A DNA stretch of 64,000 nt from Tropicimonas isoalkanivorans (GTDB lineage: Bacteria; Pseudomonadota; Alphaproteobacteria; Rhodobacterales; Rhodobacteraceae): assembly GCF_900112335.1 (NCBI RefSeq), contig NZ_FOLG01000018.1, positions 1 through 64,000 on the forward strand. The letters run 5' to 3'. The notes under the pieces are model-generated. The model saw nothing but the letters and a program-made list of their open reading frames with translations, ran no database searches and was not told where the DNA came from. Below, piece after piece: positions 46,544 to 54,087 of this stretch (position 1 is the stretch's first letter; every line of letters begins with the position of its first letter). Both the position numbers and the translations under genes were made by a program.

Positions 46544-47254
46544 CTACCCGTGCGTCACGGTGATGGACGACACCGAAGCATCCACCTGACGCACCGCGGA
46601 CAGCAGCCGCCCGTTCAGGTGCCCCTGCACATAGCTTGCGTGAAACCGGCTCGGGGCGTGCAACAGCAACCGGTCCCCGGTCCGCGCCGCCCGCGTCAAC
46701 GCCGCGAACCAGGCCGCGTGCAGGTTGGCATCCTCAGCATAGAGCAGTCCGGAGGCGAGCGCCCATTCATCGTCCGACGACACGTCGGGCGGCTTTGGCC
46801 GCGTCGCGCCGGGAAAGGCGACGATGGTCCCCTGCCCCGCCGGCGCTTCGCCCGTTTCCGCCGCGCCCATCCGAACCGCGAAATCCTCGCCCACATTCGC
46901 CCAGGCTGGCGCGGTATCGGCCAGAATCCGTTCCAGGCACAACTGATACACCGTGATACGCCCGCGCGCGGCCGGGCGCTTGACCGCAATCCACCCCAAG
47001 GCCTTAAGCCGCGCAAGTTCCCGTTTCACCGTGCGCTCATCGACGCACCACAGCCGCGCCATCTCCCGGCGGCCGACCACCAGTTCCTCTGTGCGCCAGT
47101 TGTATCGCGCCGTAATCAGTGTCAGCAGCCTCAGGCTGCGTTTCTGTTGCGACCTGTCCCCTGGCCCGGCCGCGAGCGCATGGGCGCCTAGAGCGGTCAG
47201 GATATCGTATTTCATCGCCGAGGCATTTCGCCCGACGGGTTTCGTTTGGATCAT
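46544..47254 (-). CDS. DnaA-like plasmid replication initiator (Rhodobacterales type)
   Basis: A replication initiator of the DnaA-like plasmid class described from Rhodobacterales. It has an N-terminal winged-helix region (ELVVGRREMARLWCVDERTV and KRELARLKALGWIAVKRP) and a C-terminal domain resembling DnaA domain I (WFAALTRAARTGDRLLLHAP then SRFHASYVQGHLNGRLL). It has no AAA+ ATPase motif. I use the ATG at 47254, which has AAGGA eight bases upstream and gives 236 residues; ATGs at 47317 and 47365 are in frame but have no ribosome site. Together with divergent parAB it identifies the replicon as extrachromosomal. Confidence 0.85.
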   Translation of the reverse strand: MIQTKPVGRNASAMKYDILTALGAHALAAGPGDRSQQKRSLRLLTLITARYNWRTEELVVGRREMARLWCVDERTVKRELARLKALGWIAVKRPAARGRITVYQLCLERILADTAPAWANVGEDFAVRMGAAETGEAPAGQGTIVAFPGATRPKPPDVSSDDEWALASGLLYAEDANLHAAWFAALTRAARTGDRLLLHAPSRFHASYVQGHLNGRLLSAVRQVDASVSSITVTHG

Positions 47255-47716
47255 CCGCCCGATCCTTGCCAAGATACCGGTCACCCGGGTCGCTGCCTCT
47301 GCGGTCACGCCGCTCATGGTCTGTCGTTGGAGGTCAAACCAACGCTTTTCGCCATTTGACGGCAATTAGCGTCTCGTATCTCGATTCTGTCAAGGATTTT
47401 CAAGCCATCGCCGATCTCGGCCTCAAATCCGAAGGATAAGAATCGGTTTCATTGGTATAGGGGGACGTTCTGGCTGTCCCCCTATTTCGGGGTTTTGTCC
47501 CCCTATATGTCGTGTGGCACGCCGAAGTGTCCCCCAATCACCAGCCGCCCCCTGCCCCATTTTGCGGCCGCCCGGCGTAGCGCGCGCGAATCGCCTGCAG
47601 CTCAGGTTTTCAAAGGCGTGGGGCATTCCACCCGCAACACGCATCAAGAATAATAGGTTTTGCAAAAACGTGCAAATCCGCGTAAATCCGAAATCACAAC
47701 GAAAATACGTCCGATC
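47255..47716. other. Putative origin/control region between the initiator gene and parAB
   Basis: About 460 bases without a gene. It holds a cluster of a 10-bp repeat (47457-47538, listed separately) and, near parA, an AT-rich stretch with repeated GCAAA and GTAAATCCG-like words (about 47650-47700). This is the natural place for initiator or ParA/ParB binding and possibly the origin. Promoters for both divergent transcripts must lie here. Confidence 0.6.
47457..47538. repeat. Iteron-like cluster of GTCCCCCTAT
   Basis: The 10-mer GTCCCCCTAT occurs at 47476-47485 and 47497-47506, as its exact inverse ATAGGGGGAC at 47457-47466, and as GTCCCCCAAT at 47529-47538. The first two copies form a perfect 10-bp inverted repeat with a 9-base gap; the two direct copies are 21 bases apart, two helical turns. 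Such spacing suggests cooperative protein binding. Confidence 0.8.
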
Positions 47717-49027
47717 ATGAGGCGCGCAGTGACTTACACCCATGAAGACCTGTCCCGTCTGCAGGCGAACTCCCTCAAGATGCAGAGTTGGATCCGCCGT
47801 CAGACCTTCTCGCCGGAACTGGAAAAGACCCTCCGTCGGTTTTCGAGCTGGGAAGTGTCCGAGCTGATCCTCAAGGTGAACCAGTCGACCTTTCGCGGTC
47901 GTCTCGCCGCCGATCCATCCTTGCCCGCCGGCGAGGTCGTGGGAGATGGCCGTCAGCGTTGGTACACCCTCGAAGAGATCAACGAGATGCGGCGCCGGAT
48001 GAAGGTCAACCGCCGCTCCCTCCTGCCCCGCCGCCCGACGGGCAAGCGGGCCTTCCGGGCGGCCGTTGCGAATTTCAAGGGCGGCGCCGGCAAATCGACC
48101 GTCGCGCTGCACTTCGCCCATGCCGCCGCGCTGGACGGCTATCGCGTGCTTGTCGTTGATTTCGACCCCCAGGCCACGCTGTCCCACTCCATGGGGCTTT
48201 CCGACGTGGCGGAGGAATACACCGTCTGGGGCATCATGGCCCGCGACCTCGTGCGGGAGACGGACCGGATGAACGAGGCGCCCACTGCCGCCGAGTCCGG
48301 CGCCTCCCTGCCCCGCCGCCAGATCCCGTCTTCGATCCGGGACATGGGCCTTGGCACGCTCCGGGTGCCGGACTTCATCAAGCCCACGGCCTGGTCCTCC
48401 ATCGACATTATCCCCTCCTGCGCCAACGCGGCCTTCGTGGAATTCGCGTCCGCGCAGTACCGGCACCTGAATCCGGACTGGTCCTTCTTCGCGGCCGTCT
48501 CACGCTACCTCGACGGACTGGCACCGGATGCCTACGATCTGGTGATTTTCGACTGCCCTCCGGCCATCGGTTACCAGTCGATGAACGCGGTGTTCGCGGC
48601 CGACATGCTCTACATTCCTTCCGGCCCGGGCTACTGGGAATACGATTCCACCACCTCCTTCATCGGCCAACTCGCCGAGGCGCTGGAGGATCTGTCCGCC
48701 GGGTTCCCCGCGGGGAACCTGCCATTGCCCAAGGCCTTCCTCGAGATCCGCTTCCTGTTGACCCGTTACGAGCCCGGCAACGACCTGCACCGTGCAATGT
48801 TCGACGCCTTCCGCAAGGTCTTCGACGGGCATGTCGCCGAACACCCGATCGAGATGACCCGAGCCGTGGAGCAATCCGGCCGCTTCCTGTCCTCCGTCTA
48901 CGAGATTGATTATCGCGATATGACGCGGGAAACCTGGCGCCGCGCGCGCACCACATTCGATCAAGCCTACGCTGAATTCCGGGACACCGTGCTCTCGGCC
49001 TGGGACCGCCTGGAGGACGTGGCATGA
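47717..49027 (+). CDS. parA: Plasmid partition ATPase ParA (RepA-type, with HTH domain)
   Basis: A 436-residue type Ia ParA. An N-terminal DNA-binding region (about 1-105) includes FSSWEVSELILKVNQSTFRG and YTLEEINEMRR. The Walker ATPase has the deviant A box KGGAGKST (121-128), A-prime DFDPQATLSH (148-157) and Walker B YDLVIFDCPP. The start at 47717 gives MRRAVTYTHEDLSRLQ; an in-frame TTG at 47660 falls inside the repeat region. An 18-bp palindrome (candidate parS) lies inside the gene. It overlaps parB by 4 bases. Confidence 0.94.
   Translation: MRRAVTYTHEDLSRLQANSLKMQSWIRRQTFSPELEKTLRRFSSWEVSELILKVNQSTFRGRLAADPSLPAGEVVGDGRQRWYTLEEINEMRRRMKVNRRSLLPRRPTGKRAFRAAVANFKGGAGKSTVALHFAHAAALDGYRVLVVDFDPQATLSHSMGLSDVAEEYTVWGIMARDLVRETDRMNEAPTAAESGASLPRRQIPSSIRDMGLGTLRVPDFIKPTAWSSIDIIPSCANAAFVEFASAQYRHLNPDWSFFAAVSRYLDGLAPDAYDLVIFDCPPAIGYQSMNAVFAADMLYIPSGPGYWEYDSTTSFIGQLAEALEDLSAGFPAGNLPLPKAFLEIRFLLTRYEPGNDLHRAMFDAFRKVFDGHVAEHPIEMTRAVEQSGRFLSSVYEIDYRDMTRETWRRARTTFDQAYAEFRDTVLSAWDRLEDVA
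48702..48719. promoter_or_regulatory. parS: Candidate parS site inside parA
   Basis: Perfect 18-bp palindrome GGTTCCCCGCGGGGAACC, identical to the one just after parB at 50132-50149. The flanking base on the left also matches. Two identical perfect palindromes at a parAB locus are best explained as ParB binding sites. Confidence 0.75.
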
Positions 49028-50124
49028 GCAAGAAGCGGCGCGTTTTCGATATCGACTTGCCCGACGATCTCTCCTCTGACCCGCCGGCTGCTCCCGGGTC
49101 CGCCACGGCGGCGTCCGTGGCCCGCCGTGGGCCGATGGCCTCCGCAGTGCGGGAGAATGCGGAGTCCCTCAGCAACCGAGCGGACATGGAAGCCCGTATA
49201 CGCGCGGAGAATGATCGACTTGCCCATGAACACGTCCGTCTCAAAAAAGCGGGCCTGATCACCGACCTTATTCCGACCGAGGCGATTTCAACGACCAAGC
49301 TGATCCGGGATCGCAACTTCGATGGCACGGACGACCTGTCCGAACTCAAGGCGTCTATCGAGGCAATCGGCCTGTCCAATCCGATCCAGGTCGAGCAGGT
49401 CGGTGAGGGGGCGTACGAACTCGTGCAGGGCTTGCGGAGGCTGTCGGCGTGGCGCGAGCTGCGGATTGCGTCCGGCGGTAGCGATGAACGCTGGACCCGG
49501 ATCCCGGCCACGATCATCGCCAGTGGCGAGGCGTTGGAGCAGCTCTACCGTCGGATGGTGGACGAGAACCTCGTTCGGAAGGACATCTCTTTCGGCGAGA
49601 TGGCGGTGCTGGCGCGGGACTATGCCGCTGACCAGCAGACCAAGGTTGACGACGTGGACGCGGCGGTTCTGGAGCTCTACCGGTCGGCGGGCAAGCAGAA
49701 ACGCAGCTACATCCGCGCCTTTGCTCAACTCTTCGAAATCATCGGCGCCCATATCCAGTTCCCGCAGGCAATTCCGCGACAACTCGGGCTCGATCTTCGC
49801 AAGGCTTTCGAGGTCCAGCCCGACTTGGCCGAGCAGGTTCTCGCGGACCTCGCAGCGCTTCCCGCGCCACGCCAGCCAGAGGACGAGAAGCGCGTGCTGA
49901 GCGGCTATGCCCAAGCAGCGGGTAACACGGAGCGATCGAAGGGGCCGGGGGCGAAACCTCGGCCGGCGCGAACGACTTTCCGCATCGAGCGGCCGGGCGG
50001 CTCGGCGAAGGTCACCGCGTCCCACGGGCGGCTGGAGGTTCGGTTGAACACGGATTTCTCCGCCAAGGATCGACGCATGCTGGAAGCCGCATTGGAAGCG
50101 TTCCTCGCCCAACTCGATGAATAG
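49024..50124 (+). CDS. parB: Plasmid partition protein ParB (RepB-type)
   Basis: A 366-residue ParB. The ParB/Srx domain spans about residues 80-180 (DLSELKASIEAIGLSNPIQV, then ELVQGLRRLSAWRELR, where the family has GERR in the CTPase motif and this copy has GLRR), followed by a helix-turn-helix region (about 185-250, SFGEMAVLARDYAAD) and a C-terminal dimerisation domain. The ATG overlaps the parA stop (ATGA). It binds parS and works with ParA to segregate the replicon. Confidence 0.92.
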   Translation: MSKKRRVFDIDLPDDLSSDPPAAPGSATAASVARRGPMASAVRENAESLSNRADMEARIRAENDRLAHEHVRLKKAGLITDLIPTEAISTTKLIRDRNFDGTDDLSELKASIEAIGLSNPIQVEQVGEGAYELVQGLRRLSAWRELRIASGGSDERWTRIPATIIASGEALEQLYRRMVDENLVRKDISFGEMAVLARDYAADQQTKVDDVDAAVLELYRSAGKQKRSYIRAFAQLFEIIGAHIQFPQAIPRQLGLDLRKAFEVQPDLAEQVLADLAALPAPRQPEDEKRVLSGYAQAAGNTERSKGPGAKPRPARTTFRIERPGGSAKVTASHGRLEVRLNTDFSAKDRRMLEAALEAFLAQLDE

Positions 50125-50552
50125 GGCAGGGGGTTCCCCGCGGGGAACCATGCTTGCAGACCTGCGACTCGCCGATCGTTCACGCGGTCGCGGTGGGGCC
50201 ATACTACAGCGGAGAAAAGATAGTGAAAACCCGACGCGCGGTTGTCCGGGAGGGCCGGGGACCACGAAGACTTTCCGAACCATGGGGCAGGGGAGGGCGG
50301 TCGGTCAAAGCGGCCCGGGTGCGTGTGCAATTGACTACGTACATGCGGAGCGCGACGTGGCGTGAAGTAAATTTAAAATAATAAAATCAATATCTTAAGT
50401 AGACTTCAAAACCGGATGCGTGAAGTCCTCAACCGCGCGCCGATCTCGCGACAGGTCCACTGCCGGGGATGCGAACACCCCGGCAGGGCCACTACCTGCG
50501 CAGGCGGGGACACCCGAGACGGACGCAGCCGGCACGTTCCCTGAGCCCGACC
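50125..50552. other. Non-coding region downstream of parB with AT-rich island
   Basis: About 430 bases with no supported gene. It contains the parS candidate (50132-50149) and a striking AT-rich island at about 50365-50411, flanked by direct repeats of GCGTGAAGT (50360-50368 and 50418-50426). Such an island in otherwise GC-rich DNA is a candidate duplex-unwinding element for the replication origin. Confidence 0.55.
50132..50149. promoter_or_regulatory. parS: Candidate parS site downstream of parB
   Basis: Second copy of the perfect 18-bp palindrome GGTTCCCCGCGGGGAACC, starting 7 bases after the parB stop. Its position right at the end of the partition operon is classical for parS. Confidence 0.8.
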
Positions 50553-51308
50553 TCAGCAAGCGGACAGCCAGCCGAGGCCAGCGTCCGTCGTCGTGCGAGG
50601 TTTGTACTCTGCGCCGAGCGGCGTCTTGTAACCCAGCGTCTCAAGATGGGCATAGATATGCGGGTAATTCACTTCGCCGCAGTCTGGCTCCGAGCGGTCC
50701 GGCACGGAGGCGATCTGGATGTGCCCGATTATCGGCAACCTTTCGGTCAGGTGCCGGGTCAAATCCCCCTCCATGATTTGCAGATGGTAGCAGTCGAACA
50801 TGAGCTTCACGTTCGGGCGGGCGACGTCTTCGAGGATCGCGGCCGCCTGGGAGCTGGTTTGCAGGAAGTACCCGGGGGCATCGTAGCGATTGAGTGGCTC
50901 GATCAGAATGGTGATGCCGTGCGGTGCGGCCTGGGTACTGGCGTATCGCAGGTTGGTCACGAAGGTCGCCCGTGCGTCTGCGCCTTCGGCAAATCCGGCC
51001 ATGACATGCACGTTGGGCGTGCCGATGGCCCTGGCATAGGCGATGGCCTGGTCGATCGCGTCGCGAGCCTCTTGCTGCCGTTGGGGCAGGGCGGCAAGAC
51101 CGTTCTCCCCCGGCTGTCCGCGCACGGTGTTCAGCCCAAGCATGGGCAGGCCGGTCTCCCGCAGGGCCACGGCGACCTCCTGTGGCGGGGTGTCGTAGGG
51201 CCAGTGGCATTCGACGGCCTGGAATCCGGCCGCCTTTGCGGCCCGGATGGCATCGGGCAGGGGCAGTTCGGTCCACAGGAAGCCGAGGTTTGCAGAAAAA
51301 GCCGTCAT
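50553..51308 (-). CDS. otnI: 2-oxo-tetronate isomerase (OtnI; Hyi family)
   Basis: A 251-residue TIM-barrel isomerase of the hydroxypyruvate isomerase family. Visible segments are FSANLGFLWTELPLPDAI, GFQAVECHWPY, ILIEPLNRYDAPGYF (metal-binding Glu) and VKLMFDCYHLQIMEGDL, the last with the conserved Asp and His. Hyi-family members beside OtnC and OtnK convert 2-oxo-tetronate to 3-oxo-tetronate in L-threonate/D-erythronate breakdown; that context is why I prefer OtnI to hydroxypyruvate isomerase. Start chosen at 51308; an ATG three codons earlier overlaps otnC. Confidence 0.87.
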   Translation of the reverse strand: MTAFSANLGFLWTELPLPDAIRAAKAAGFQAVECHWPYDTPPQEVAVALRETGLPMLGLNTVRGQPGENGLAALPQRQQEARDAIDQAIAYARAIGTPNVHVMAGFAEGADARATFVTNLRYASTQAAPHGITILIEPLNRYDAPGYFLQTSSQAAAILEDVARPNVKLMFDCYHLQIMEGDLTRHLTERLPIIGHIQIASVPDRSEPDCGEVNYPHIYAHLETLGYKTPLGAEYKPRTTTDAGLGWLSAC

Positions 51309-51309
51309 G

Positions 51310-51963
51310 TCAGTCATCCCACTCGACATTGAATTTGGAAACCAGGCCTCGGATCTCCGCCTCGTTCAGCAAGCGGGGAGAGAGGCCGCGGGTCAGCATG
51401 GCGAGCTTCGCCGTCTCCTCCAGCTCCTCCATGGCATAACAGGCGGCCTCCAGGTCCTTGCCGGCGACGACGGGGCCGTGATTGGCCAGCACGACGGCGC
51501 TGCGCCTGCCTGCGAGGCCGCGAATGGCATCGCCCATCGCCGGATCGCCCGGCATGAAGTAGGGCAGGAGCTTCACCCGCCCGAGCTTCATCACGCCGTA
51601 GGCGGTGATCGGGGGCAACATGTTCTCCGGATCGGTATCGGGCAAAACCGACAGCGCCACCGAATGGGAGGAATGGAGGTGCACGACCGCGCCGGTCTGC
51701 TGCGGGCGCGTCTCGTAGAAGGCGGCATGCAGCGGCACTTCCTTGGTGGGTGCGTCGCCGTCAATTAGGGTCATCCGGGCGTCCAGCACCGAGAGGCGCG
51801 CCGGGTCGAGGCGGCAGAAGCAACTGCCGGTGGGTGTGACCAGAAGGCGGTCTGCGTCAAGCCGGGCGGAGATGTTGCCGCTGGATCCGACGGTCAGTCC
51901 GCGGTCGAACATGGATTTGGCGAGCAGGCAGATCTGTTCGCGCAGGCGGGCCTCGGCGCTCAT
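51310..51963 (-). CDS. otnC: 3-oxo-tetronate 4-phosphate decarboxylase (OtnC; class II aldolase fold)
   Basis: A 217-residue class II aldolase/adducin-family protein. The zinc-binding histidines are in VVHLHSSHSVALS and LANHGPVVAG; GLTVGSSGNISAR near the start and TPTGSCFCRLDP bind phosphate. In the otn pathway it decarboxylates 3-oxo-tetronate 4-phosphate to dihydroxyacetone phosphate. The ATG overlaps the otnK stop (ATGA), fixing the start at 51963. Confidence 0.9.
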   Translation of the reverse strand: MSAEARLREQICLLAKSMFDRGLTVGSSGNISARLDADRLLVTPTGSCFCRLDPARLSVLDARMTLIDGDAPTKEVPLHAAFYETRPQQTGAVVHLHSSHSVALSVLPDTDPENMLPPITAYGVMKLGRVKLLPYFMPGDPAMGDAIRGLAGRRSAVVLANHGPVVAGKDLEAACYAMEELEETAKLAMLTRGLSPRLLNEAEIRGLVSKFNVEWDD

Positions 51964-53237
51964 TCGGCGGCCTCCAGTTTTGCGAAGGCGTCGGAAAAGA
52001 AGGTTTCGGTGCCGAAGTTGCCGGATTTTAAGGCCATGGCGATGTCGTGGCCACCGCTGCGGCACCACGTCCAGGGGACGCCCGGCGCGATTTCCTCGCC
52101 GATGGACATCCGGGTCACGCCGAGCGCCTTGGTGACCGCGCCCGCCGTCTCGCCGCCGGCGACAACGAACCGGCGCACGCCGAGGTCACGCGCATCGGTG
52201 GCAAGCTGCGCCAGGGCGGCCTCGACCACCGCGCCGGCACGCGCCGCGCCGAGCTCGGCCTGCGTGGCCGCCACGTCGGCGGGCTCGGCCGTGGCATAAA
52301 CGATCTTGGGGGCCTCCGCGGGCTGTTGGGCGAGCCAGTCCCGCGCGGCTTGCGGCCCCGATCTGGCCAGTTCCAGCGGATCGAGCTTCAGGGCGGAGGC
52401 CTGCGGCAGGTACTGCGCGACCTGGGCGCGGGTCATGGCGGAGCAACTGCCAGACAGCACGATGGAGCCCGCGCCGACGGGGGGAGGGGCCTGCCGCCGG
52501 GCGCTCCGGGCAATGGCACCGTCGCGCAGGTAGATGCCGGGCAGGGGCATGGCCAGGGCACTGCCGCCGGTCATCAGGGGCATGTGGGCACAGGCCTCGG
52601 CGAGAATTCTGAGGTCATCGTCCGCCACCGCGTCCAGCACAACGTGGGCGATGCCGTCGCGCTCCAGATCGGCCAGCCGCGCCCGTACGGCATCCGGTCC
52701 GCGGGCAACGGTGAGCCGGTTGACCAAGCCGACCTTGCCCCGCACCTGCGGCGCCAGAAGCCGCATGAGGTTGCTGTCGCGCATCGGGGTCAGGGGGTGA
52801 TCCTTCATCGGGCTCTCGGCAATCGGCTGTTCGCCGACGAAGAGGTAACCCATGAAGACACTGCGCCCGTTCTCGGGGAAAGCTGGGCAATAGACCGTCT
52901 GCGTTGCGCCGAGATCGGCCATCAGCGCCTCGGCAACGGGGCCTATGTTGCCGTCCGCGGTGCTGTCGAAGGTCGAGCAATATTTCCAGAAGATCCGCTG
53001 CGCCCCGGCGCGGCGCAGCCAGTCGAAGGCGGCGCGGGTGTCGGCCACGGCCTCGGCAACGGGTATGGTGCGGCATTTAAGGGCGATGATCTCGAAGGCG
53101 GCGGTTTCCGCGGTTTCAGGCGGCGCGTCGGGAATTCCCATCCGCAGCGAGACGGCGATACCGCTGCGGGCGAGCAGCCCGGCAAGGTCCGTTGCGCCGG
53201 TGAAATCGTCGGCGATGCATCCAAGAACGACAGCCAT
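51960..53237 (-). CDS. otnK: 3-oxo-tetronate kinase (OtnK; DUF1537 family)
   Basis: A 425-residue four-carbon acid sugar kinase. The N-terminal LGCIADDFTGATDLAGLL is the DUF1537 signature, followed by FWKYCSTFDSTADGNIGPVA and the C-terminal nucleotide-binding FVVAGGETAGAVTKALGV. It phosphorylates 3-oxo-tetronate at O4. The start at 53237 follows GAAAGGAAGG. It is the first gene of the otnK-otnC-otnI operon. A tetronate dehydrogenase of the usual LtnD type is not present here. Confidence 0.92.
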   Translation of the reverse strand: MAVVLGCIADDFTGATDLAGLLARSGIAVSLRMGIPDAPPETAETAAFEIIALKCRTIPVAEAVADTRAAFDWLRRAGAQRIFWKYCSTFDSTADGNIGPVAEALMADLGATQTVYCPAFPENGRSVFMGYLFVGEQPIAESPMKDHPLTPMRDSNLMRLLAPQVRGKVGLVNRLTVARGPDAVRARLADLERDGIAHVVLDAVADDDLRILAEACAHMPLMTGGSALAMPLPGIYLRDGAIARSARRQAPPPVGAGSIVLSGSCSAMTRAQVAQYLPQASALKLDPLELARSGPQAARDWLAQQPAEAPKIVYATAEPADVAATQAELGAARAGAVVEAALAQLATDARDLGVRRFVVAGGETAGAVTKALGVTRMSIGEEIAPGVPWTWCRSGGHDIAMALKSGNFGTETFFSDAFAKLEAAE

Positions 53238-53306
53238 CGGTGGCCTTCCTTTCGGTTCTTCCATCTGCCTGCGAGGGCAGTCTTCTATTGCGCGGCCGGG
53301 CCCGCT

Positions 53307-53323
53307 GTGCGCCCTGGGCGCAC
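53307..53323 (-). terminator. GC hairpin between gntR and otnK
   Basis: Perfect inverted repeat GTGCGCCC-T-GGGCGCAC in the 109-base gap between the GntR stop and the otnK start. It lacks a U-tract; it could attenuate read-through from gntR into otnK or act as a protein-binding site. Confidence 0.4.
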
Positions 53324-53346
53324 GGACATGGTGGCGGCGCGCTTCG

Positions 53347-54087
53347 TCAGGAGATGTCTCCCTTGGTCATGAGCGACCGGGTGGTCGCGTAGACGTGCCG
53401 GAGGTGCCGTGCGAAGGCCGCGCCGGCGGCAGCGGGGTCGCGGGCCCTCAGTCCGTCCAGAATCTCCGCATGTTCACGGCAGCTCGCCTCGATAACGCCG
53501 GGCACGGCGACGACCTGACGCCTGCGTGTCATTTCGTAGCCGTAGAGGTCCGCGACGAAGTCGGTCAGGACCGGGTTGCCGCTGGCCTCGTAGATCGTCA
53601 GATGGAATCCCCGATCGCTGACGAGGAAACGGATCGGGTCGTTTGTCATGCCGAACTGGGCATCCAGCATCTCCTCCAGCTTGGCGATGGTCGCGTCGTC
53701 GATCCGCAGAGCGGCGCTGCGGACAACCATGTCTTCCAGCATGGTCCGGGCGGTTTCGACGTCTTCGAGGGAATAGGCGTTGATCCGTTGGGCCTGCCGG
53801 GTGTCGGGGGTCACGTCGGCCGATATAACGCGGGTCTTGACCCCCTGGGCGATGGACAGGACGCCCTTCGCGGCCAGGAATTGCAATCCGCTGCGCACGC
53901 TCGATCGGCTGATGTTGAAGGAGACCGCGAGTTCGCGTTCGCTTGGAAGTTCGTCGCCGACGCTCAACGCTCCGGTTGCGATGAGGGAGGCGATTTTTCT
54001 CGCGACCAGATCCCGGGCAGAGGCCGGTTTCAGCGCCTCGTCGAAATGTGGCTTTTTGTGCTCCGGGGTATCCAAGGTCGTCTCCAT
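53347..54087 (-). CDS. GntR-family (FadR/FCD) regulator of the otn operon
   Basis: A 246-residue FadR-type regulator. The winged helix contains LPSERELAVSFNISRSSVRS (about residues 47-66) and the C-terminal FCD domain carries DRGFHLTIYEASGN plus later His residues that bind metal and the ligand. It lies directly upstream of otnK on the same strand, and a strong palindromic operator overlaps its own promoter, so it probably autoregulates and controls the otn genes in response to a tetronate. Confidence 0.9.
   Translation of the reverse strand: METTLDTPEHKKPHFDEALKPASARDLVARKIASLIATGALSVGDELPSERELAVSFNISRSSVRSGLQFLAAKGVLSIAQGVKTRVISADVTPDTRQAQRINAYSLEDVETARTMLEDMVVRSAALRIDDATIAKLEEMLDAQFGMTNDPIRFLVSDRGFHLTIYEASGNPVLTDFVADLYGYEMTRRRQVVAVPGVIEASCREHAEILDGLRARDPAAAGAAFARHLRHVYATTRSLMTKGDIS

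Follow-up and report, generated by a model that had tools for sequence, protein, structure and literature searches.

For low-copy plasmids to coexist, each ParB must read the centromere, parS, of its own plasmid. Intragenic parS sites are known in other bacteria (e.g. within spo0J of Bacillus subtilis). The closest described plasmid systems are the RepABC replicons of the Alphaproteobacteria, whose parS sites are palindromic, follow a 16-bp consensus, GTTNNNNGCNNNNAAC, and lie in or beside the partition operon; in Rhodobacterales they tend to sit between repB and repC, or after repC (PMC9040568). The palindromes of RepABC plasmids are type-specific, and have been linked to compatibility groups (PMC5613091). 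In chromosomal ParB and Noc proteins, specificity resides in a few residues in or near the recognition helix, one of which, residue 173, recognizes a base at the edge of the site (Jalal et al. 2020; PMC7383237). Within the portions of the literature that we compared, which did not extend to the founding paper (10.1093/molbev/msq310), type-specific palindromes are described for RepABC plasmids and none were found for DnaA-like plasmids; one figure of PMC9044938 may show palindromes of the latter.

Here, we describe the partition locus of a DnaA-like plasmid from Tropicimonas isoalkanivorans. The stretch of DNA that was analysed, ‘the window’, comprises 64,000 nucleotides of a 77,960-bp contig. 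The ends of this contig are identical over exactly 95 bp (bases 1-95 = 77866-77960) and therefore it looks like a complete circular plasmid of ~77.9 kb. The features of the locus are listed in Table 1. The replicase matches Pfam DnaA_N with only 18.8 bits, below the cut-off of 24.6. It shares 51% identity (residues 38-270) with the replicase of pGal_A255 (NC_023138.1), a plasmid classed as DnaA-like-I (PMC4148982), versus 37.8% with that of pDSM14862_d (NZ_CP084955.1), classed as DnaA-like-II (PMC9025767), and on this sequence comparison we assign the plasmid to the DnaA-like-I kind. The gene order, with the replicase divergent from the adjacent parAB on an extrachromosomal circle, is that of DnaA-like-I plasmids. 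Membership of the RepABC family was considered and rejected on family scores: the NCBIfam equivalog models gave 205.3 for RepA (TIGR03453; cut-off 348.45) and 35.2 for RepB (TIGR03454; cut-off 201.5). By eye, no open reading frame 3′ of parB resembles RepC. The frames on the minus strand at 50553-54087 resemble, on inspection by eye, an operon for sugar-acid catabolism (isomerase, aldolase, kinase and GntR-type regulator). For parA, the in-frame ATG at 47717 is likelier as the start than the TTG at 47660; ParA codons are numbered here from the TTG, and are 19 lower if counted from the ATG.

Table 1. Features of the partition locus (positions in the window)
Feature	Position	Strand	Remarks
Replicase, DnaA-like-I by homology	46544..47365	-	Weak Pfam DnaA_N match; homology to pGal_A255 replicase; divergent from parAB
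parA (ParA/RepA-like ATPase)	47717..49027	+	ORF 47660-49027; alternative TTG start at 47660
parS candidate 1, perfect 18-bp palindrome GGTTCCCCGCGGGGAACC	48702..48719	.	Inside parA, touches codons 348-354; same codon position in most relatives
ParA loop codons TTC CCC GCG GGG AAC (FPAGN)	48704..48718	+	Within the palindrome; low-confidence loop of AlphaFold2 model
parB (ParB_N domain)	49024..50124	+	ParB_N above cut-off; start overlaps parA stop codon
ParB K224-Q225 codons	49693..49698	+	First residues of predicted recognition helix (224-243); covary with parS bases
parS candidate 2, identical 18-bp palindrome GGTTCCCCGCGGGGAACC	50132..50149	.	7 bp past parB stop codon

A preliminary description of this DNA had pointed to two identical, perfect 18-bp palindromes, one inside parA and one just past parB, sharing one extra flanking base, and had proposed them as parS. 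Both are present as exact copies, and the shared base is a G (48701 and 50131). That two copies are improbable by chance, as it supposed, is borne out by dinucleotide shuffling: no shuffle of 100 contained two matches (mean 0.09). With up to three mismatches allowed, no further match to GGTTCCCCGCGGGGAACC occurs in the window, and with up to two, these are the only two places in the entire genome (4,976,641 bases; 51 contigs). The many copies scattered over the chromosome that would speak against a centromere were thus not found in the genome. The inner 14-mer of GGTTCCCCGCGGGGAACC, with at most one mismatch, occurs at one further place in the genome. The contig contains five perfect palindromes of 14 bp or more, among which GGTTCCCCGCGGGGAACC alone is repeated, and alone reaches 18 bp. 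Both copies also fit the published RepABC consensus, a fit that by itself proves little because the consensus is loose: the window matches it three times, a number that was also reached in 5 of 100 shuffles.

ParB homologues occur in 56 of 198 family genomes at E ≤ 1e-40 and in 94 of 394 at E ≤ 1e-60 (overlapping sets), and in 599 of 72,556 plasmid records at E ≤ 1e-5. We took 100 loci from genomes, including the window's own, and 80 named loci, the best 80 of 467 relatives; among these 80 the closest is that of Tropicimonas marinistellae (ParB 73%). Collapsing loci with identical last 250 ParB residues reduced the 180 to 165 distinct loci, the window's included, a set in which close relatives remain. 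In 143 of the 165, the fetched stretch contains perfect palindromes of 14 bp or more, with seven related cores mostly built around CCCCGCGGGG; in the other 22, none of the counted cores is present as a perfect copy. These palindromes cluster at parAB, with 372 copies in the 736 kb of sequence that begins 2.5 kb before parB and ends 1 kb past it versus 5 in 861 kb farther off, a comparison that favours the former since the cores were picked from those seen at the loci. A perfect copy lies 0-60 bp past parB in 66 of the 165. Against the centromere reading stand core matches elsewhere: across 15 whole genomes, hand-picked among those with a locus, 65 core matches were found, 16 of them away from parAB, 11 in one genome (G001), 3 in another (G182) and 2 in a third (G010). 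The other 12 genomes have matches only at parAB. The eleven in G001 (L240-L250) are scattered, perfect GTCCCCGCGGGGAC palindromes, at least 2 of which are covered by no open frame of 100 codons; they may be repeats dispersed in the genome, terminators or additional ParB sites.

Palindromes differ in type from locus to locus, and the types go hand in hand with residues of ParB. To assign types, we relied on copies other than the one in parA, and on eight cores chosen after the data had been seen; 140 of the 165 loci could be typed, and 7 of these, having no -8 base, were left out of the -8 count. Of all ParB columns, residue 224 tells most about the -8 base, accounting for 1.23 of ~1.42 bits (0.74 when normalised; next column, 0.38). 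Among 133 loci, Y accompanies C in 68, R accompanies T in 37 (TG flank), K accompanies G in 14, and P or A accompanies T in 10, so that 129 fit a simple rule. The exceptions (G with Y in three, G with R in one) are L076 and three loci with RepABC-type palindromes, L061, L179 and L204. In the latter three, GTTGACAGCTGTCAAC palindromes occur nearby, there is neither a parA site nor the expected CTTCCCC, and ParB has Y224-Q225, against the code; the GTTGACAGCTGTCAAC palindromes may belong to another module. For the -5 base, residue 225 ranks first by a narrow margin (0.47, versus 0.47 for G168 and 0.46 for L256). Among 140 loci, Q is found with C in 114 and with G in 3, and S, T or V with A in 17; in the remaining six of the 120 loci with C, residue 225 is not Q (S in 4, N in 1, T in 1). 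Serine is an ambiguous predictor, occurring with A in 8 loci and with C in 4.

The types follow the ParB tree, on which the -8 base changes ~8 times and residue 224 ~9 times. Phylogenetically independent pairs number 3-4 in the same direction, none in the opposite, and 1-2 without difference for the -8 base, too few for significance; the corresponding figures are 2/0/1 for the -7 base, and a single pair is available for -5. In the ParB model, residue 224 opens helix 224-243, and residues 221-230 have a mean pLDDT of 94. Searching PDB sequences with ParB returned two weak Noc matches only (E 0.007), and comparison of the model's fold returned Noc, ParB and KorB structures, with E down to 8e-8 and low TM-scores. 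By eye, ParB residues 224-226 match residues 171-173 of Jalal et al. (2020).

The rule was written down before 14 unused plasmids were fetched, none an exact duplicate of a training locus, although some have near relatives there. In all 14, the sites agree with the flank predicted from residues 224-225. In L254 and L266 the parA site is the sole evidence, and in L266 it is a near-palindrome. Stray palindromes off the rule were seen in L255 (one, of another core) and L260 (one of three, with C for T at -8). The published plasmids pGal_A255 and pPGA1_262 fit the rule too, both having been seen before it was written.

Like known parS sites, then, these palindromes are repeated and lie at parAB, and their type covaries with residues of the putative ParB recognition helix. 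The parS reading of the preliminary description gains comparative support from their clustering at homologous parAB loci, from this covariation and from the held-out plasmids. We regard it as very probable, judging by sequence comparison, that these palindromes serve a DnaA-like-I plasmid as its parS centromeres, and that one copy resides family-wide in parA. Two other roles seem improbable: that of operators bound by another protein, for instance a repressor or the DnaA-like replicase, and that of a terminator or RNA hairpin past parB. The copy just past parB could form a hairpin, and 32 of the 165 loci have perfect copies no more than 400 bp upstream of parA, on the replicase side. Yet a scan of 47000-50500 found one terminator-like site, at 47125-47139, and none at the palindromes, on which ground we reject the terminator reading; a copy inside coding sequence suits neither role well; and the half-site types covary with residue 224 of ParB.

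The copy in parA occupies a fixed position. Protein alignment allowed this position to be mapped in 161 loci, including three that look DnaA-like-II (L089-L091); four (L087, L088, L122 and L133) were unmapped. A 14-bp palindrome at ParA codon 351 is perfect in 81 of the 161, and has one mismatch in 61, giving 142 with at most one mismatch over the 14 bp. This count is slightly low because two further loci, L086 and L124, have a perfect site 6-7 bp off the mapped point, owing to alignment slips. Of the other 17, 3 have two mismatches and 14, including the three DnaA-like-II-looking loci, have no site, and the parA site is therefore dispensable. A CACG centre accounts for 36 of the 61 single mismatches, 31 of these in Paracoccus. 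In a position control with the first 95 mapped loci, 58 perfect palindromes were found at codon 351 versus 32 at 1,364 other parA positions combined. The parA site is also, as a rule, of the same type as its neighbours: over positions -7 to -3, one or both arms agree with copies elsewhere in the same locus in 117 of 121 cases (mean with shuffled labels 50.7; maximum 68 in 10,000 shuffles), and for the outermost base both arms agree in 102 of 114 cases, against a mean of 44.3 and a maximum of 62 with shuffled labels.

Within parA, the palindrome must also be read as codons. The preliminary description held that its presence constrains codon choice, and the otherwise rare codons TTA and ACA at the site confirm this; it understated the constraint, for the amino acids follow the DNA as well. 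Sites with GTTCCCC encode FPAGN; those with CTT or TTT encode FPAGK, or FPTGK when the centre is CACG; TGTCCCC sites encode VPAGT; CTTACCC sites mostly encode LPTGK; and CTTATCC sites encode LSADK. Among the 142 sites, which are preselected for having at most one mismatch, leucine is TTA in 20 of 20 near-palindromic sites versus 1% elsewhere in the same genes, threonine is ACA in 36 of 43 versus 10%, and glycine is GGG in 120 of 138 versus 19%. In three loci with leucine here and no palindrome (L072, L135 and L217), the codon is not TTA.

An opposite view is that ParA residues 349-353 are conserved for the function of the protein, with the palindrome a by-product of favoured codons. P-A-G is indeed found at these residues in 86 of the 161 mapped loci, and these genes commonly use CCC and GCG. 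However, all 86 fall within the 142, and CCC-GCG-GGG encodes the tripeptide in 75 of them versus 2.7 expected; when synonymous codons are drawn with the peptide held fixed, 8.5 perfect palindromes are obtained among the 142, preselected as they are, versus the 81 seen. The peptide also changes with parS type, and TTA, ACA and GGG are codons to which these genes otherwise rarely resort. Whereas the rest of the protein is ~80% identical, this stretch varies and contains indels. On codon usage and the dependence on parS type we reject this explanation, whose probability we put lower still than that of an operator or hairpin. The AlphaFold2 model of ParA (mean pLDDT 66.9) suggests that the site lies in a loop, a low-confidence one between helix 311-327 and strand 343-348, with pLDDT <50 at residues 330-337, where the site falls. 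Chance duplication can be dismissed: GC-rich sequence does make such palindromes commoner, and one of the 15 genomes has 11 scattered core copies, but no shuffle in 100 yielded two matches, and the comparative data, with conservation at one codon across relatives, contradict it.

Taking the palindromes as parS, the likely mechanism is that of a standard ParABS centromere, and what appears new is where one copy sits and what this does to the protein. Most likely, a ParB dimer binds each palindrome, placing one recognition helix on each half-site; residue 224 would read the outer bases, and residue 225 would help to read the -5 base. ParB so bound would nucleate a partition complex that ParA moves, and its loading within its own operon might also provide autoregulation. 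The parA copy would be shared across the family and tied to one codon, within a flexible loop that tolerates indels and whose codons and amino acids are set by what the DNA requires. If so, a change in ParB specificity should bring either a change in the loop peptide or decay of the site. Possible signs of the latter come from the held-out plasmids, 5 of which (L257, L260, L263, L264 and L265) have a parA site with two or more mismatches. Four of these five have K224 and GTT palindromes elsewhere, and their ParA peptide is still VPPGT or LPSGT, which might be a relic of an earlier TGT site. Together with L062, L257, L263, L264 and L265 form a group of possible relics of TGT specificity, with VPPGT, LPSGT or VPAGT, no usable palindrome, and GTTCCCC at their other sites.

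We think it likely, in sum, that DnaA-like-I plasmids keep a functional centromere at one parA codon, where the preference of ParB dictates the ParA loop; that residues 224 (Y, R, K or P/A) and 225 (Q, or S/T/V) constitute a simple code for the parS flank; and that switches in specificity rewrite ParA or leave relics. Our confidence in this is held lower because residue 225 leads its rivals narrowly. If it is true, the parS type of a plasmid, and hence its likely compatibility, could be predicted from the sequence of ParB alone. The family is large and natural, relates ParB residues to centromere sequence in a short and readable way, and offers many plasmids as test cases. Its parA site would also illustrate clearly how a protein can be shaped by a DNA-binding site inside its gene.

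The parA site has limits. It is present in the two published DnaA-like-I plasmids, pGal_A255 and pPGA1_262, and absent from DnaA-like-II pDSM14862_d, RepB-I pPGA1_78 and RepA-I pPGA1_65 (one plasmid of each kind). A second RepA-like ATPase in the window's genome (L005) aligns here with a shorter stretch. In pDSM14862_d, GGTAACCCATGGGTTACC lies directly past parB (L234, 3222-3239), and L090 has similar GTAACCC palindromes; these perhaps represent a different parS class, associated with M before K-R/K-S-Y-I-R in ParB.

Compared with known systems, the window's palindromes resemble RepABC parS sites in sharing the 16-bp consensus and the location in or beside the partition operon, and differ in that their family has a copy fixed in the parA coding sequence and a DnaA-like replicase. 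The nearest published plasmids, pGal_A255 and pPGA1_262, have the same replicase family, parAB, and the parA site, which in their case reads GTCCCCGCGGGGAC and encodes VPAGT; they combine GTCCCC with ParB R224, whereas the window combines GTTCCCC with K224. In contrast to the switching of specificity between ParB-parS and Noc-NBS, what we see here is a natural plasmid family in which at least four outer-base classes appear tied to residue 224. What appears to be new is that the parA site is fixed in position, that the ParA peptide depends on it, and that a rule relates residues to bases.
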